From Pseudomonas trivialis (lineage in GTDB: Bacteria > Pseudomonadota > Gammaproteobacteria > Pseudomonadales > Pseudomonadaceae), in contig NZ_JYLK01000002.1 of the NCBI RefSeq assembly GCF_001439805.1, positions 1-64,000 of the forward strand: a stretch of DNA of 64,000 bases, in the 5' to 3' direction. Below the pieces are notes generated by a model, which was not told where the DNA came from, searched no databases, and saw only the letters and a program-made list of their open reading frames with translations. The translations under genes were made by a program, and so were the position numbers. Positions 54,099 through 64,000 of the stretch are shown piece by piece. Position 1 is the first letter of the stretch. Each line of letters begins with the position of its first letter.

Positions 54099-56513
54099 CT
54101 AGAACTCCAGCGTACTGGACACCGACACCTGCCGCGCATCGCCCATCGACACAAACAGACGGCTCGCCGCCGAGGTGGAGTAAGTGCGATCGAACAGGTT
54201 CTTCACGTTGAACTGGAACTTGACCTTCTGCCCTTCGATCCGCGTGTCGTAGGTGGCAAACGCGTCGGCCACGGTGTAGCCCGGCAGGTTGAAGCTGTTA
54301 TTCGCGTCGCCTTCGCGCTGGCCCACATAGCGTGCGCCGGCGCCCACGCGCAGGTCATCACCGCCCACCAGGCTGCCGAAGTCGTACACCGCCGACAGTG
54401 AGCCGGTGTGCTTGGCCACGTTCTGCAGGCGCTTGCCTTCCAGGGCCGGGTCCTTGGTCACTTCGGCGTCGGTGTAGGCATAGCTGCCGATCAGGCTCCA
54501 GTTGTCGCTGAGCTGGCCGGTGGCATCCAGCTCCAGGCCGCGCGAGCGCACTTGGCCGGCGACGCTGTAGACCGTGTCCAGCCCGGTGCCCACCGACACC
54601 AGCACATTGCGCTTGTTGATATCGAACAACGCGGCGCTGGCGGTGATACGCCCCGGTATATCCAGCTTGGCGCCCAGCTCCCAGGCTTTGGACTCTTCCG
54701 GCGTGAGGCTGCCGCTCAGGGTGCTGCCATCGGCCAGCGCCGCGATGGTGGAGTTGGGTTTGAACGACTCGGTGTAGCTGCCGTAGAACGACAGTTCATC
54801 GGTGTAGCGGTACACCAGGCCGGCACGCGGCACCCACTTCTGGCCGTTGCCGTCGGTATTGGCCTTGAACGGCACGCCTTTGCCGGCGTACTGGTCGTAC
54901 ATCTGGTAGCGCGCGCCGCCCACCAGAATCCATTGGTCGGTCAGATGGATGGCGTCCTGGAAGAACAGCGAGTCGCTGCGCAGCAGGTCGGTCTGGGCGC
55001 TGTCCGGGGCACTGACGGTCGAGCCCGCCACTTCGTTGCCGTACACCGGGTTCAGGTAGCTGAAAACACCGCGCGACTTCTGCCGAATCAAATCGGCGCG
55101 ATAGACCTTGCGGTACTCGTCATCCAGGCCGAACACCAGGTCATGTTGCAGCCCGCCGGCCTGCACCTTGCCTTCCAGGCTGGCCGTGGTGAAACGGTCG
55201 GTGGTGATCGCGCCCTGGGTGCCGTCCATGCTGCGGGTCAGGGTGCCGTTGGCGTTCACCGCGCTGACACGCACCTGGCTGGCGTCGTAGGTCTCGCGGT
55301 TCCAGCTGTAGCCGAAGTGGGCCTTCCAGTCGTCGTTAAGATCGTGGTCGACTTCCAGACGGTACAGGTCGGAGCGCCCTTCCATGTTGTTGAACGGCTC
55401 ATCCAGGCGTCGGGTTGCGGGGATGTTCAACGGGTGGTTGGTCTTGGGGTCGATGGCGGTGCCACGGTCGAACGGCGAGAGAAATTCGCGATGCTCGTAG
55501 GCAAACACCACCTTGGTGGTGTCGCCATACCAGGCCAGGGACGGTGCCACCAGTGTCTCGCGATGGGTGCCGAAATTGCGCCAGTAGTCTTCGTCTTCAT
55601 GGTCGACGATCAAGCGGTAGGCCAGGCCCGAGTCACCGATAGGCCCGGTGGTGTCGAGGCTGGCGCCGCTGCCGTTCTTGCCGTCACCGAAGGTCGAGCC
55701 GCGCGCGGTCAGGGAGGTGGACTGCACCAGTGCGGGCTTCTTGCTGACGATATTGACCACACCGCCCGGGTCCTGGATGCCGTACAGCAATGACGATGGG
55801 CCCTTGAGCACTTCGACGCGATCGGCGGTGGCGTTCAGCGCACGCCCCTGCACCACGGGCATGCCGTCCTGCATGATCGAGCCGTTTCGGTTATCGCCAA
55901 AACCGCGCAGCATGACCGCATCCTGAGTGCTGCCGAGGGTGTTGGCCTGGGTGATGCCGCTGATATTGGCCAGGGCGTCGTCGAGGTTACGCGGGGTCTG
56001 GTCGCGCAACACCTGGGCGGGCACCACGTTGACGGTCTGCGGGGTTTCCAGCAGCAAGCCCTGGGAGCGCATCACCGAACTGGTGGGCGGCGGCTGGTAG
56101 CTGGTGCTGTCCTGGGCCAGGCCGGCGCCACTGATGGTGGTGGCGCCGAGGTTGACCGCGCCACGGGTGGGCACAGGTTCCAGGGCCAGGGTACGCGCAT
56201 CGATCTGGCGGAAGGTAAACCCTGAGTTGCCCAGCAGGCGTTGCAGCGCCTCGGTGGCGCTCATCTGCCCACTGACCGCAGGCGCGTTGAGGCCATAGGG
56301 CGCTTCGTCGGTGTAGATCACACTGAGCCCGGTAACCCGGCTGAAATCGCTCAGCGCCTGGGGCAGCGGTTTGGCTGCCAGGGCAAAGGTGAACCGCGCG
56401 TTCTGCTGCTCTTGCGCCTGCGCCACCGCCAGGGGCAGCAACGCCAGCCCCGAGACCGCCAATACCGAGGCTCCCAGCCACTGTTTAACCCAACTGCCCG
56501 CCGTCGACTTCAT
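54099..56513 (-). CDS. TonB-dependent siderophore receptor with STN domain (FoxA/FiuA-like)
   Basis: 804 aa from ATG 56513. Signal peptide (about 1-33), STN domain (about 40-115, PLPQALSDFSRVTGLSVIY), plug with MRSQGLLLETPQTVNVVPAQ and MLRGFGDN, barrel ending STLEF. The STN domain means it should signal to a FecR/ECF pair, but none is adjacent. FoxA/FiuA-type hydroxamate uptake is the best guess by pattern; the ligand is not proven. Confidence 0.9.
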   Translation of the reverse strand: MKSTAGSWVKQWLGASVLAVSGLALLPLAVAQAQEQQNARFTFALAAKPLPQALSDFSRVTGLSVIYTDEAPYGLNAPAVSGQMSATEALQRLLGNSGFTFRQIDARTLALEPVPTRGAVNLGATTISGAGLAQDSTSYQPPPTSSVMRSQGLLLETPQTVNVVPAQVLRDQTPRNLDDALANISGITQANTLGSTQDAVMLRGFGDNRNGSIMQDGMPVVQGRALNATADRVEVLKGPSSLLYGIQDPGGVVNIVSKKPALVQSTSLTARGSTFGDGKNGSGASLDTTGPIGDSGLAYRLIVDHEDEDYWRNFGTHRETLVAPSLAWYGDTTKVVFAYEHREFLSPFDRGTAIDPKTNHPLNIPATRRLDEPFNNMEGRSDLYRLEVDHDLNDDWKAHFGYSWNRETYDASQVRVSAVNANGTLTRSMDGTQGAITTDRFTTASLEGKVQAGGLQHDLVFGLDDEYRKVYRADLIRQKSRGVFSYLNPVYGNEVAGSTVSAPDSAQTDLLRSDSLFFQDAIHLTDQWILVGGARYQMYDQYAGKGVPFKANTDGNGQKWVPRAGLVYRYTDELSFYGSYTESFKPNSTIAALADGSTLSGSLTPEESKAWELGAKLDIPGRITASAALFDINKRNVLVSVGTGLDTVYSVAGQVRSRGLELDATGQLSDNWSLIGSYAYTDAEVTKDPALEGKRLQNVAKHTGSLSAVYDFGSLVGGDDLRVGAGARYVGQREGDANNSFNLPGYTVADAFATYDTRIEGQKVKFQFNVKNLFDRTYSTSAASRLFVSMGDARQVSVSSTLEF

Positions 56514-56545
56514 GCTCAAAGGAACCCGTATAGAAAAGCTGGTAA

Positions 56546-56560
56546 TGCGAATAGCTCGCA
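56546..56560 (-). promoter_or_regulatory. Possible Fur-type palindrome upstream of the receptor
   Basis: TGCGA-ATAGC-TCGCA, preceded by AA, 33 bp before the start codon. It resembles degenerate pseudomonad Fur boxes but matches the consensus poorly. Confidence 0.35.
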
Positions 56561-56623
56561 GTTTCAAGCACTACACGGATGGGCCGCAGGTTTACCTCAC
56601 ATTGGTTTGCAAATATTTTTCAG

Positions 56624-58489: not shown

Positions 58490-59125
58490 CTAAGGCACCA
58501 TCCCTGCATCCCGCGCATAGGCAAACAAGTCCACATCGGTGGAAATGCACAAGCGGTGCATGGCGGTACTTTTCTGTTTGCTGATCGTGGAAATACTGCG
58601 ATTGACCCGCGCGGCAATCTGGCTGACCGTCATGCCGCTGGCCAGCATCCTCACCACTTCCTGCTCCTTGCCCGACAGTTGCGGTGCCTGCGTCGGCTGG
58701 CCCAGGCCTGCAAGGTCGAGCTGCGCACGCAAGGACTCACTGATAAAGGTGCGCCCCTGCACCACGGTCTGCAGGGCCTGGGGCAACTCGCGCGCCGAAG
58801 CACTCTTGGCCACCACCGCTCGTGCGCCATGGGCCAGCGCGGTGCGCAGGGTGGCGACGTTGGCAAACATGGTCACCACGATCACCGGCACCTTGGGGAA
58901 CTGGCGGTGCAACAAGCCCAGCAAACCGTAGCCATCAGCCTGTTGGTCACCCGGCATGGCGAAGTCCGTCACGATCACATCACAGGGGGTCCTGGCCACC
59001 AGCGCCAGCAGCTCATCAGGGCCATTGGCCTCGCCCACGACTTTGCATTTACCACTCGCCTCTATCACGACTTTTTGCCCGACTCGAACGATAGGGTGAT
59101 CGTCAGCAATAATTATGCGGAGCAT
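58490..59125 (-). CDS. RcsB-like response regulator
   Basis: 211 aa. Receiver domain with ADDHPIV (8-14), phospho-acceptor Asp54 in VTDFAMPGDQ, then LuxR-type HTH (LSGKEQEVVRMLASGMTVSQIAARVNRSISTISKQK). VTDFAMPGD and TISKQKSTAM closely follow enterobacterial RcsB. Encoded just downstream of the REC-Hpt gene; both face away from the fimbrial operon, so it is the likely regulator of that operon. Confidence 0.9.
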   Translation of the reverse strand: MLRIIIADDHPIVRVGQKVVIEASGKCKVVGEANGPDELLALVARTPCDVIVTDFAMPGDQQADGYGLLGLLHRQFPKVPVIVVTMFANVATLRTALAHGARAVVAKSASARELPQALQTVVQGRTFISESLRAQLDLAGLGQPTQAPQLSGKEQEVVRMLASGMTVSQIAARVNRSISTISKQKSTAMHRLCISTDVDLFAYARDAGMVP

Positions 59126-59322
59126 CGGTTTTTTCCCATGATGGCAATTAGTTAGTAGCAAAATATCCCGACTGGCTGTAGGCAACAACCGTCAATAACT
59201 GCGTGAAATTTGCCTCCCCCCAATGTTTTAAGTGCCGTCAGTTGTTACCCACAGAAATAAAAGAAATTACATACAGAACGGTACTACATTGCAGTGGACG
59301 ATATTCCTACAAGAACTAAGGA

Positions 59323-60141
59323 TCAGAGGCTTCTCAAGTACTGTAGGTAATGTTCCACATCACGAAAAAAATCCCGCAGCGCCCCTACATTGTCCGAAAC
59401 CCCCAACTGATTGACCTGTTCCATCAACTGCACGGCCCGTGGTTCAAGGCCCGTGTTTCCCAGAAACGCGACGCTGCCCATCAGACGGTGCAGACGTTGA
59501 CTGACCAACGTCGCATCCAGGCACGTCAGGGCCTGCTCCAGGATGTCGAGGTCATGACGGGCTTCCTGGATCAGGCTATGTAACAGCGGCTGGGTCATTT
59601 CCCAGGAACCGAACATGGCAACCACGCTTGCGCGCGTGGGCCGCCTGGCATGCGCAGACAATGAAAAAGATTCGCCTGCGCCCGTGCGTGCCTGAGGCGC
59701 TGCCAACCAATAGCGCAACACTTCACGGAGTTGGGCCAGGCCGATCGGCTTCATCAGCCAGCCATCCATACCGCAGGCCAGGCAACGCTGGATGTCCCCA
59801 GGGCCAAGGCTGGCGGTAAGGGCCAATACGCAACAGGCAGGGCTGCGCGCCGCACGTTCGCGACGGCGCAGCTCGCGAGTCATCGCGTACCCGTCCATCA
59901 CCGGCATGCAACAGTCGGTGATAACCACGTCAAAATGCAGCGCTTGCATCACCATCAACGCCTGTCGACCGTCGCTGCAACAGAGGTGTAATACGCCGAG
60001 TTTCTTCAACAGCGAACCGAGCAACAGTCGATACGTGGCGTGATCGTCCACCACCAACACGCGAACGCCGCTTTCAGGCCACACCAGCGCGCCGTCGGGC
60101 TCTGCCTGGCATGAACTCCTATCTGGCAACGTGCCCGGCAT
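59323..60141 (-). CDS. REC-Hpt phosphorelay protein without kinase domain
   Basis: 272 aa from ATG 60141 (GAGG, spacing 6). Receiver domain 25-145 with Asp32/Asp33, phospho-acceptor Asp76 (VITDCCMP) and Lys131; Hpt domain 170-270 with His218 in LHRLMGSVAFLG. It looks like the C-terminal third of a BvgS/RcsC/RocS hybrid kinase, but no sensor or kinase sequence is visible upstream and its own ribosome binding site is good. It should pass phosphate between an unlinked kinase and the RcsB-like protein. Confidence 0.9.
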   Translation of the reverse strand: MPGTLPDRSSCQAEPDGALVWPESGVRVLVVDDHATYRLLLGSLLKKLGVLHLCCSDGRQALMVMQALHFDVVITDCCMPVMDGYAMTRELRRRERAARSPACCVLALTASLGPGDIQRCLACGMDGWLMKPIGLAQLREVLRYWLAAPQARTGAGESFSLSAHARRPTRASVVAMFGSWEMTQPLLHSLIQEARHDLDILEQALTCLDATLVSQRLHRLMGSVAFLGNTGLEPRAVQLMEQVNQLGVSDNVGALRDFFRDVEHYLQYLRSL

Positions 60142-60280
60142 AAAGCCCTCTTCACGAGAGCGAACTGCTCAGCCGGCATGACGGGGGTCACACGTGAACC
60201 TTTCGCCCAAAGACGACGCCCTGAACCTCAACCATGAGATTCAAATAAATGCGCTTCGAGCTTTGAACATATCCGGACGA

Positions 60281-60424
60281 ATGCACATCAGCCATACAAC
60301 AAGTACGAAAACTCCAGTAGGCGCTTCCCATCTGATAAAGCGATCCGACATTGCCGATCGTGGCTGTACGACATTCGCTCAGTCTCGTATTAGTTGCATT
60401 TCCCCGCTCTCCCCCTGGCGATAA
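60281..60424 (+). CDS. Short upstream ORF 1 (RISCIS tail)
   Basis: 47 codons from ATG 60281 (GGA eight bases upstream). An in-frame GTG at 60194 with GGGGG upstream would give 76 aa. It ends SRISCISPLSPWR then TAA. The last 12 codons align with those of the second short ORF. Not a recognised family; a leader peptide or a coincidence of the DNA repeat are both possible. Confidence 0.35.
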   Translation: MHISHTTSTKTPVGASHLIKRSDIADRGCTTFAQSRISCISPLSPWR

Positions 60425-60429
60425 ATTCC
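60386..60429 (+). repeat. 44-bp direct repeat, copy 1
   Basis: Starts CGTATTAGTTGCATTTCC and ends GGCGATAAATTCC. It matches copy 2 at 36 of 44 positions without gaps; the outer 11 and the last 8 bases are identical. AT-richer than its surroundings at both ends. Confidence 0.8.
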
Positions 60430-60522
60430 GCAGCCCCCCCTCAAGAGCCAGGCCGCCGATCACTGACGGCGGTCGCCACTGCCTATGCCCCACTTAACGA
60501 AAACAGACACGGGAGTTGCCTC

Positions 60523-60606
60523 ATGTCCCCAACAACACGCACTCACTTTTATTGCCACCGTGTCATTCGTATTAGTTGTATTTCCGCCGTCCCACCCCGG
60601 CGCTAA
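60523..60606 (+). CDS. Short upstream ORF 2 (RISCIS tail)
   Basis: 27 codons from ATG 60523 with GGGAG eight bases upstream, so translation is plausible. The peptide is MSPTTRTHFYCHRV followed by IRISCISAVPPRR. Its tail matches that of ORF 1 (RISCIS, then two or three variable residues, P, x, R, stop), and the stop TAA is conserved. It precedes the first subunit gene by 107 bp. Confidence 0.4.
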   Translation: MSPTTRTHFYCHRVIRISCISAVPPRR

Positions 60607-60611
60607 ATTCC
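60568..60611 (+). repeat. 44-bp direct repeat, copy 2
   Basis: Starts CGTATTAGTTGTATTTCC and ends GGCGCTAAATTCC, 182 bp from copy 1. Covers the last 12 codons and stop of short ORF 2. Confidence 0.8.
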
Positions 60612-60713
60612 CTGCCGCGCGCCGAGCCGTGCTTTAACGACGGCCTTGAGCAACTGCACCCGGGTGGTTTGTTTTACCCGTGAAATTTTCTTAAACCCCA
60701 AGGACGTGTACCT

Positions 60714-61325
60714 ATGGACAGAATCACTCTCGCCTTCCTGCTTGCGGCCTGTGCGCCAGGCGTCTTCGCCGCCAGCCATACCGACCTGAGCGTCTCCGGG
60801 GCGATTGTGCCCAGTTCCTGCACGCCCAGCCTTAGCGATGAAGGCTTGATTGACCACGGCAAGATGACCTCCAAGGACTTGCAGGCAACCAAACCCACGC
60901 TGCTGGCTCCGGCTGAGTTGCGCCTGGAAGTGCACTGCGAGGGCAAGACTTTTTTTACCCTGTCCACCATCGATAACCGCGCCGGCACTTCGGCCATCAA
61001 CTGGCGAGACCACGGCCTGGGCCTGAGTCCGAATGACGAGAAGCTCGGCAGCGTGACGTTCACCCTGTTCGACCCGGTGGCGGATGAAAACGCGGTCAAC
61101 GTGATTGTCTCGAGCAATGGCGCAAGCAGCTGGTCGACATCCAATTACCTGGGCCACGAAGGGCTGACTTCGTTCGCCGCCCTCGGCACCAAAACCCCGA
61201 TCGCCGTCAAGGACCTGAGCGCGCGGTTGCGGGCGTTCTCGATCATCGTGCCGGCCAACGAATTGACGCTGCTTGATGAAGTGCCGGTCGATGGCCAGGC
61301 CACGCTGCAGCTCAAGTACCTGTAA
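60714..61325 (+). CDS. Fimbrial subunit, DUF1120 family (first)
   Basis: 203 aa. Signal peptide to about residue 20 (ACAPGVFA-AS), then DLSVSGAIVPSSCTPSLSDEGLIDHGKM with the first cysteine and a second in LEVHCEGKT. C-terminal strand ATLQLKYL resembles the terminal beta strand of chaperone-usher subunits. AAGGA ten bases upstream. First gene of the operon. Confidence 0.88.
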   Translation: MDRITLAFLLAACAPGVFAASHTDLSVSGAIVPSSCTPSLSDEGLIDHGKMTSKDLQATKPTLLAPAELRLEVHCEGKTFFTLSTIDNRAGTSAINWRDHGLGLSPNDEKLGSVTFTLFDPVADENAVNVIVSSNGASSWSTSNYLGHEGLTSFAALGTKTPIAVKDLSARLRAFSIIVPANELTLLDEVPVDGQATLQLKYL

Positions 61326-61361
61326 ATCCGTTCACTTCCCTTCCCCTGTAGGAGCACCACC

Positions 61362-61982
61362 ATGAAGTCCCTCCATACCCTGTTCGCCGCCTTGCTGCTG
61401 ACCACTGCCGGCACTGCCGTCGCGGCCTCCAGCGTTGACCTGACCGTGCGCGGCATCATCACCCCCAGCGCCTGTGAGCCTGCGTTGTCCAACGGTGGCG
61501 CCGTGGATATCGGCAAGCTGTCAGCGAAGGACCTGAAAGTCGACAAGCCGACTTTTCTGCCCTACCAGACGCTGCAACTGACCGTGACCTGTGACGCGGC
61601 GACCCTCATGGCCCTTGAGCCCAAAGACAACCGCGATGGTTCGGAATATGCCAATGATGCGTCCGTGTTTGGATTCGGCATGATCAACGACAGTGAAAAA
61701 CTCGGCGGCATGGAGCTGACGCTCCTGAATGCGACGGCTGATGGCGTCGCTTCCCGAGTGATCTCATCGCGCAACAACGGCACCAGTTGGACAGCGATAC
61801 CGTCGTTTGAGAAGGGCTCCATTCTTTCGGTCGCCGCGAGTGACGTGAACACACCCACGCCGGTGCGCCTGATGACCGCCAACGTGCGCATCCTCCCAAT
61901 CATTGCACCCGCCGCCGGCCTGACCCTGAACAACGAAGTGGCCATCGACGGCTCCGTCACCCTGACCGTCAAGTACCTCTAA
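61362..61982 (+). CDS. Fimbrial subunit, DUF1120 family (second)
   Basis: 206 aa. Signal peptide (ends AVAAS), VRGIITPSACEPALSNGGAVDIGKL, second cysteine in LTVTCDAAT, C-terminal VTLTVKYL. Ribosome binding site TAGGAG. Paralog of the flanking subunits with the same layout but clearly diverged sequence. Confidence 0.88.
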   Translation: MKSLHTLFAALLLTTAGTAVAASSVDLTVRGIITPSACEPALSNGGAVDIGKLSAKDLKVDKPTFLPYQTLQLTVTCDAATLMALEPKDNRDGSEYANDASVFGFGMINDSEKLGGMELTLLNATADGVASRVISSRNNGTSWTAIPSFEKGSILSVAASDVNTPTPVRLMTANVRILPIIAPAAGLTLNNEVAIDGSVTLTVKYL

Positions 61983-62059: not shown

Positions 62060-62686
62060 ATGAACATGCTCTCGCGCCGTCTGCTGACGCTGTGCCTCTG
62101 CCTGCCCGCCACACCTGCGCTGTGTGCGTCGTCCACCGAGATGACATTCACCGGCATCATCACGCCCAGCGCCTGCACACCCTCCCTGTCTTCCGAAGGC
62201 ATCGTCGATCACGGACGGGTGCCCGCGCGCTCCCTCAACCAATACGAATTCACGCAGTTGCCTACCCGCAACCTTGACCTGGAAGTGAGCTGCAATGATC
62301 CGGTGCTGTTTGTGCTGGTCGGCGTGGACAACCGCGCCGCGTCGTCGGTTGGGCCAGGGTTTTATTACGGCCTGGGCAACAACATTCACGCGCCGAGTGA
62401 GCGTCTGGGCTCCGTCTCGCTGGCGATCCGCGAAGCGTACGGCGACGGCCTGCGCGTGTTGGTCCTGGCGTCGAGCAACCAGGGCGAGACCTGGTTTCCG
62501 GAAGACAATGCGTACCCAAACAATTTCATGGGCTTCGCCACGCCCGGCACGCTGATCCCTGAACCCCATCGCCGGATCGACGCCATCTTGCAGATCGACA
62601 CGTCGATCAATGCCGCCGCCTTCCTGACCCTCGACCAGGAAGTGCCGCTGGACGGCTCCATCGTGCTCGACCTGAGGTACCTCTAA
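62060..62686 (+). CDS. Fimbrial subunit, DUF1120 family (third)
   Basis: 208 aa. Signal peptide (ALCASS), FTGIITPSACTPSLSSEGIVDHGRV, second cysteine in LEVSCNDPV, C-terminal IVLDLRYL. Weak ribosome binding site. The 77-bp gap before it is larger than the other spacings. Closest in its N-terminal motif to the first subunit. Confidence 0.87.
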   Translation: MNMLSRRLLTLCLCLPATPALCASSTEMTFTGIITPSACTPSLSSEGIVDHGRVPARSLNQYEFTQLPTRNLDLEVSCNDPVLFVLVGVDNRAASSVGPGFYYGLGNNIHAPSERLGSVSLAIREAYGDGLRVLVLASSNQGETWFPEDNAYPNNFMGFATPGTLIPEPHRRIDAILQIDTSINAAAFLTLDQEVPLDGSIVLDLRYL

Positions 62687-62688
62687 CC

Positions 62689-63435
62689 ATGTTTCCCGTT
62701 CTGCGTTTTGCCCTGCTCTCACGGTTATTCAACCTTGTTCGCTACACGGGCCTTTATCTCGCCGCCGTGGCCCTGACCCTGTGGGGCCCGACGTGGGTGC
62801 TGGCTGACGGCATGGTGCCGGACACCTCGGTGGTGATCGTCAATGAAGCCGATGGCGAAGCTTCGGTGTCGGTCACCAATACCGACTCAAAGCTGGCGCT
62901 GCTGCATGTGACCCTCGAAGACATTCCGGAAGACACCGCAACGCTGCTGTTTGTCACACCCCCACTGACGCGGGTTGAACCGTCCAAAAGCCAGCTGATC
63001 CGGTTCATCCTGCAATCACCGACGCCACTGACCACGCAACGCTTGAAACGCGCGATCTTCGAAGGCATGCCCCAGGGCCGTGCCGCCGCCGAGGCCGGCC
63101 ATGCCCGCGTGGGCGTGACGGTGCGCCAGAACCTGCCGGTGATCCTGCACCCCAAGGGCCTGGCGCCCAACCGCACGCCCTGGACCGGGCTGACCTGGAG
63201 CCTGCACGACAGCCGGCTGAGCGTGCACAACCCGACGCCCTACGTGGTGCGCCTGGCTCAGGAATTGAGGCTGCTGCCGGGCAACGGCTCTGCGCTGTTG
63301 CCGCGTACCTACGTGTTGCCGGGTGAGACCCTGACGGTCGCCGCCAGCCAGGCCCAGGCCAGCACCGTGCAACTGCAGCCGGCGACCGTCTACGGGTTTG
63401 CCGTGGGGCCTTACGAAGCACCCATCACGCTTTGA
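62689..63435 (+). CDS. Periplasmic fimbrial chaperone
   Basis: 248 aa. Long signal region, then PDTSVVIVNEADGEASVSVTNTDSKLALLHVTLED in the PapD-like N-terminal Ig domain, TRVEPSKSQLIRFIL with the Arg/Lys anchor region, and a C-terminal domain. ATG lies 2 bp after the third subunit stop, with GAGG inside that gene. Folds and delivers the subunits to the usher. Confidence 0.9.
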   Translation: MFPVLRFALLSRLFNLVRYTGLYLAAVALTLWGPTWVLADGMVPDTSVVIVNEADGEASVSVTNTDSKLALLHVTLEDIPEDTATLLFVTPPLTRVEPSKSQLIRFILQSPTPLTTQRLKRAIFEGMPQGRAAAEAGHARVGVTVRQNLPVILHPKGLAPNRTPWTGLTWSLHDSRLSVHNPTPYVVRLAQELRLLPGNGSALLPRTYVLPGETLTVAASQAQASTVQLQPATVYGFAVGPYEAPITL

Positions 63436-63557: not shown

Positions 63558-64000
63558 GTGAGCACAGTTAAGACTGACCGCGACGGCGAAGCCTTGCCCG
63601 GCGTTTCACCGCGCCACTTGCGCCGACTGCTGGCAGGCCTGGCGCTGAGCCTGGGCACCGCGCTGCCCACCGGCACCCCTCTGGCCGACGACAACACCGG
63701 TTCGTTCGACCCGCAAACCCTGTCCCAGCGCGGCATCGACCCGCAACTTGCCAACCTGCTGCTACAGGCGCCCCGGTTCGCGTCGGGGCGTCATGCTCTC
63801 AACCTCAGCGTCAACGGCCAGCGGCGCGGACGTGTGGATGTGGTATTCGACGACCGCGGCACGCTGTGCTTTAACCAGGCGCTGCTGGACGCGGGCAATT
63901 TGCGCGTGCCGCACGCCAATGCCGAGTGCCACGGTTTTCTCGACGCTTACCCGCAAACCGTCATCGAGCAGGACCCGGCCAGCCTCAGCCTGTCGCTGGT
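63558..64000 (+). CDS. Fimbrial outer-membrane usher, 5' part
   Basis: At least 147 codons from GTG 63558, truncated by the window end. Signal region with LRRLLAGLALSLGTALP, then FDPQTLSQRGIDPQLANLLLQAPRFASGRHALNLSVNGQRRGRVDVVFDDRG (here cut in parts), which is the PapC N-terminal pattern. Needed to export and anchor the fimbria. Confidence 0.82.
   Translation, partial: MSTVKTDRDGEALPGVSPRHLRRLLAGLALSLGTALPTGTPLADDNTGSFDPQTLSQRGIDPQLANLLLQAPRFASGRHALNLSVNGQRRGRVDVVFDDRGTLCFNQALLDAGNLRVPHANAECHGFLDAYPQTVIEQDPASLSLSL

Follow-up and report, generated by a model that had tools for sequence, protein, structure and literature searches.

In the leader of a fimbrial operon of Pseudomonas trivialis, each copy of a direct repeat is probably an activator-type promoter of this operon that is read by an RcsB-like regulator, and genes that stood between the two copies are probably missing. 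This proposal is based on the comparison of related loci, which shows a conserved box, its spacing, orientation and place, its link with the regulator and the missing genes. The window, i.e. the whole stretch of 64,000 nt that was analyzed, contains a DUF1120 chaperone-usher operon with three subunit genes and a chaperone gene; the usher is recognized from a fragment that scores below the family cut-off (Table 1).

Table 1. Features of the regulator and fimbrial locus, in positions of the window.
Feature	Position	Strand	Remarks
RcsB-like NarL-family response regulator	58490..59125	-	presumed reader of the box
Receiver-Hpt protein	59323..60141	-	presumed phosphate donor
ORF 1	60194-60424		GTG start
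Box A, putative activator box	60386..60403	+	CGTATTAGTTGCATTTCC
-10-like TAAATT of promoter A	60422..60427	+	TAA is the stop of ORF 1
Leader of promoter A	60428..60522	+	aligns to the leader of a P. poae DUF1120 gene that the window lacks
GGGAG and ATG of ORF 2	60511..60525	+	probable relic start of a missing DUF1120 gene
ORF 2	ATG 60523 to stop 60606		27 aa; GGGAG at 60511-60515
Junction	60524..60550	+	27 nt in place of 1392 nt of P. poae
Box B, putative activator box	60568..60585	+	CGTATTAGTTGTATTTCC
-10-like TAAATT of promoter B	60604..60609	+	TAA is the stop of ORF 2
First DUF1120 gene	60714..61325	+	PF06551; its ATG lies 146 nt from the start of box B
Second DUF1120 gene	61362..61982	+	PF06551
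Third DUF1120 gene	62060..62686	+	PF06551
PapD-type fimbrial chaperone	62689..63435	+	PapD_N, PapD_C
Fimbrial usher, cut by the window end	63561..64000	+	top NCBIfam hit from an usher family, under its cut-off (fragment)

The two copies of the repeat span 60385-60429 and 60567-60611 (45 nt, 82% identity). Counted from the CGT, they form a 44-mer (60386-60429 and 60568-60611) with eight differences, and both copies can be read as RISCIS-x3-P-x-R-stop. The first-pass annotation had described two short ORFs ending in one peptide within a 44-bp repeat, a good ribosome site in front of the second ORF and two silent differences among the eight. These observations hold: both ORFs exist, 36 of the 44 positions are identical, ORF 2 is preceded by GGGAG, and the silent differences lie in codons 4 and 12. 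The kept stop that had been pointed out is likewise present in both copies; its cause, however, is not coding but the -10-like hexamer TAAATT, whose TAA is the stop common to ORF 1 and ORF 2. This hexamer follows, after 18 nt, a box of 18 nt with the pattern CGTA(T/A)T(A/T)GTTG(T/C)ATT(T/C)CC. At up to three mismatches, the 18-nt core occurs at only two sites of the window, versus 0.02 expected.

For the comparison, 81 of 85 regulator loci were examined, i.e. 80 fetched loci and that of the window. All of them contain a box within three mismatches, and the total of 98 boxes compares with 1.0 expected in Markov-resampled sequence. Of these, 28 boxes have no mismatch, 26 have one, 26 two and 18 three. 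With the IUPAC pattern at no more than one mismatch, 33 of the 81 loci lack a box, and complete coverage needs three. The gene downstream of the box lies on the same strand in every case (98/98) and encodes a DUF1120 protein in 94 cases and a chaperone in four. While 87 boxes are on the operon strand, the 11 on the opposite strand stand before a separate DUF1120 gene. The median distance from box to downstream gene is 177.5 nt for the 98 boxes, with gene starts extrapolated from tblastn and one distance negative because of a partial match. Number and kind of DUF1120 genes differ among loci. Most loci (66/81) possess one box, 13 possess two and two possess three; the paired site proposed for the leader is thus seen here with two boxes, but it is not general. 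Loci with several boxes include L146 (at 4103 and 5055), L153 and L160 (oriented coordinates). In L146, a DUF1120 gene follows each of the two boxes at about 108 nt, which would suit a joint duplication of promoter and gene.

The hexamer 3' of the 98 boxes has the form TA...T and is mostly TAAATT or TAGATT. It is separated from the box by 18 nt in 88 cases, by 19 nt in six and by 17 nt in one; after three boxes the rule used detects no -10, and several boxes are followed by weak ones, e.g. TATGGT or TATCTT. Within the box itself, TCGTA, TTG (positions 9-11) and AT (positions 13-14) are invariant, and positions 5, 7, 12, 16, 17 and 18 vary most. Two direct 7-nt half-sites with 2 nt between them may be discerned in the box (CGTATTA-GT-TGTATTT), a candidate arrangement proposed from the letters. 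A promoter scan of 59100-61400 predicted no sigma-70 promoter and no -35/-10 pair, on which count an ordinary sigma-70 promoter with both hexamers was rejected. The absence of such a pair fits activator dependence, yet it gives the promoter model no support. The fixed distance from box to -10 and the lack of a consensus -35, two of the marks of an activator-dependent sigma-70 promoter, are both found. Signs of an RNA element were also sought: the region 59100-61400 has no Rfam match at E values up to 1, and RNAalifold predicts no consensus structure in two sets of 62 and 25 leaders of 55 nt, a weak test given the rough alignments.

The distribution of the box over genomes was analyzed with the pattern CGTATTAGTTGYATTTCC, allowing at most one mismatch, in 398 Pseudomonas genomes. 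It was found at 43 places in 39 genomes, and the reversed control pattern in two genomes. The regulator (E at most 1e-60) is present in 85 of the 398 genomes and DUF1120 genes in 135. Boxes occur in 39 of the 85 genomes with the regulator and in none of the 313 without it, nor in any of the 50 genomes that have DUF1120 genes but no regulator (39/85 vs 0/50, Fisher p 3e-10 with kinship of the genomes ignored). All 43 boxes lie less than 3 kb from a regulator orthologue, the farthest at 2825 nt. An exact scan of named genome contigs yielded 20 stretches, 12 from Pseudomonas and eight from other groups. Cluster genes accompany all 12 Pseudomonas stretches, including those of P. poae, P. lactis, P. 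salomonii, P. viridiflava and P. syringae; in the eight others, none of the eight proteins tried has a match. In the own genome, three box places are found at up to three mismatches, one of them, with three mismatches, beyond boxes A and B, versus eight for the reversed control. As the control exceeds the box count, more distant targets cannot be judged, and none stands out. Of the functions suggested earlier for the repeat, that of a regulator-binding site is well supported by the comparison, given the restriction of the box at up to one mismatch to genomes with the regulator (39/85 vs 0/313) and its presence in 81/81 loci at up to three mismatches.

The regulator (query sequence without the first residue) belongs to the NarL/FixJ family, with 72.5 bits for Response_reg (cut-off 30.2) and 31.2 bits for GerE (cut-off 23.5). 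RcsB is its best solved relative (127 bits), and the model of RcsB proper (NCBIfam NF008098) is the best among the listed families; because its score of 149.6 bits remains under the cut-off of 235, we call the protein RcsB-like only. Among the 81 sequences, the HTH is more conserved than the receiver (0.91 vs 0.82), and STISKQK is conserved to at least 98%. In 21 of the 81 loci, which form a second group, there is no match to the receiver-Hpt protein. The box is kept in these loci, hence it tracks the regulator, and another phosphate donor would presumably serve there.

From these comparisons we infer binding, activation, a phosphorelay and the start sites as follows. If TAAATT corresponds to -12 to -7, the box would be located at about -48 to -31. 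The phosphorylated regulator would most likely bind the box as a dimer and, by a contact at the -35 region, recruit sigma-70 RNA polymerase, which would transcribe the DUF1120-chaperone-usher operon. The phosphate would probably reach the regulator via the receiver-Hpt protein. Promoter B would serve the present first DUF1120 gene, and promoter A would once have stood before DUF1120 genes that are now missing. Promoter B would still be preceded by what remains of a missing gene: its leader, its ribosome site and, in ORF 2, its start codon.

The missing genes are seen by comparison with P. poae (L035; the same stretch occurs in G156 and L085), where two DUF1120 genes lie between the first and the second box, and the second box is followed by a gene orthologous to the first DUF1120 gene of the window (88% identity). 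The window matches the leader of the first P. poae box up to 60523 (76%) and resumes its match from 60551 with the second promoter and gene (87%), so that 1392 nt of P. poae with two DUF1120 genes stand against 27 nt here. Among 57 relatives searched at the DNA level, the own genome was the only match; in a search of 298 genomes, eight matched including the own one, and only G156 did so at both promoter regions. The alignment of leader and start implies that ORF 2 consists of the leader and start of the missing gene run into promoter B. Transcripts from promoter A may still allow translation of ORF 2, which would then be a relic of this lineage. The close pair of boxes would accordingly go with gene loss between the copies, a direction suggested by one relative. 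That P. poae instead gained two DUF1120 genes between tandem promoters, the window representing the older state, seems unlikely to us. The single informative relative and the variation in number and kind of DUF1120 genes among loci would be compatible with a gain. However, the leader in the window can be aligned to P. poae as far as the start codon of a gene that the window lacks, and the ATG is found 137 nt from the start of box A, versus 136 nt for the P. poae gene; under a gain, this leader with its ribosome site would have had no gene.

The relic start also bears on the idea, put forward in the first-pass annotation, of a translated leader peptide controlling the operon. In the version considered here, both ORF 1 and ORF 2 would encode such peptides, which would act through their common RISCIS tail by stalling or attenuation. 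We regard this as highly improbable, even though ORF 1 and ORF 2 are both open frames with a common tail, ORF 2 has a good ribosome site, and the -10 element supplies the in-frame stop for 76 of the 98 boxes. In the other 22, the -10 lacks an in-frame TAA or TAG, an earlier stop occurs, the spacer puts the hexamer out of frame, or no -10 was detected. The frame is not conserved: seven spacers (17 or 19 nt) shift it, an in-frame start upstream is absent in 48 boxes and present in 50 (ATG or GTG in 43), and a start combined with an SD-like 4-mer occurs in only eight. Nor is the peptide tail kept when sought in other Pseudomonas loci, as RISCIS is read in 22 of the 98 boxes and 30 different six-residue readings exist, counts that depend on allowing three mismatches. 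The proposed check for synonymous change turned out against coding as well. The main variable sites fall on codon positions 2 (ATT/AAT), 1 (AGT/TGT), 3 (TGT/TGC) and 1 (TCC/CCC), and third codon positions at box positions 3 and 9 are invariant. A leader peptide or attenuator, for which a conserved frame with start and peptide was sought, was rejected on these grounds. The case represents a trap for readers of sequences: because 18 nt is a multiple of three, a TAAATT at this distance from a conserved box mimics a shared peptide with a kept stop.

Somewhat better placed, yet still improbable in our judgment, is the explanation that the box is the site of another factor, such as an alternative sigma factor or an unlinked activator, and that its link with the regulator reflects a co-inherited cluster. 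Box and regulator always occur in one cluster in the genomes sampled, and co-inheritance alone would give the same counts. Against this, the 50 genomes with DUF1120 genes but without the regulator have no box, a moderate argument, as these genes may belong to other systems; the location of all 43 strong boxes in the 398 genomes at the regulator locus fits a dedicated local regulator more readily than a global factor, and the -10 is sigma-70-like. The same location of all 43 strong boxes led us to reject the target of an iron-type ECF sigma factor, a candidate suggested by the probable TonB receptor at 54099-56567. Beyond activation by the RcsB-like regulator, we tentatively propose a one-locus system, in which an RcsB-family regulator has its own direct-repeat (7-2-7) operator and the subunit genes are operator-carrying cassettes that are duplicated, strand-switched and lost. 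If true, the set of subunits would change between species with every cassette under one switch, and the 7-2-7 operator would occur at high similarity only at the regulator's own locus. With the box, a precise and testable candidate operator is at hand for this two-component regulator and its fimbrial operon, which occur in 85 of the 398 Pseudomonas genomes sampled.

Operators of the 7-2-7 type are known from NarL and consist of two inverted 7-nt half-sites 2 nt apart. The box would share with them two 7-nt half-sites at this distance for a NarL-family dimer, but its putative half-sites look direct and have another sequence. The consensus of the RcsAB box is TAAGAATATTCCTA; within 59123-60713 it has only two matches, each with 4/14 mismatches and neither at the boxes, and identity with the RcsAB box was rejected for boxes A and B. 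The yhc-type fimbrial operon of E. coli comprises the chaperone YhcA and the DUF1120 protein YhcF. By gene names and families, the operon in the window resembles it, with DUF1120 subunits beside chaperone and usher, and the chaperone passes NF007392/PRK09918 (249.7 vs 183 bits); it differs in the several DUF1120 genes before the chaperone and in the two-component pair alongside.

In P. aeruginosa PA14, the fimbrial promoter of cupD is activated by RcsB, according to excerpts of two papers (PMC3842833, PMC2696094). As described there, an RcsB-type NarL-family regulator adjoins the oppositely oriented chaperone-usher operon and activates cupD, a phosphorelay with receiver and Hpt domains is involved, and activity requires a site located near -75 relative to the reading frame (PMC3842833, PMC2696094). 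In the same excerpts the cupD site is like the E. coli RcsAB box, with an essential GAA, whereas the window box has no RcsAB-like match. Likened by description, the locus analyzed here further differs in its separate receiver-Hpt protein beside the regulator and in its DUF1120 subunits. Among the literature matches listed for DUF1120 and Pseudomonas, the box letters, RcsB and fimbriae, none describes this operator; the match for DUF1120 and Pseudomonas is a cysteine database, and no box-letter match is bacterial by title. In the accessible parts of the texts, RcsB and cupD appear in PMC8041468 in the reference list only, and PMC13188923 has no mention of a DUF.

A few further elements of these loci were noticed. 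Judged by eye, many leaders of the second group (L144-L160) start in a short inverted repeat (e.g. CCCTG...CAGGG), which sits just 3' of the -10 at operon-strand boxes and is possibly a hairpin at the 5' end of the mRNA; RNAalifold, run on a rough alignment, gave no consensus for it. At second-group promoters (L145-L160), a second conserved stretch, CTTTCATACA, is located about 20-25 nt upstream of the box; CTTTCATACA may represent a further pair of half-sites. In the window, AAGGACG at 60700-60706, just 5' of the first DUF1120 start, overlaps the ribosome site and resembles an RsmA/CsrA site. Finally, the minus strand at 54099-56567 contains a long ORF whose appearance suggests, by eye, a TonB-dependent receptor carrying a signalling domain at its N-terminus.
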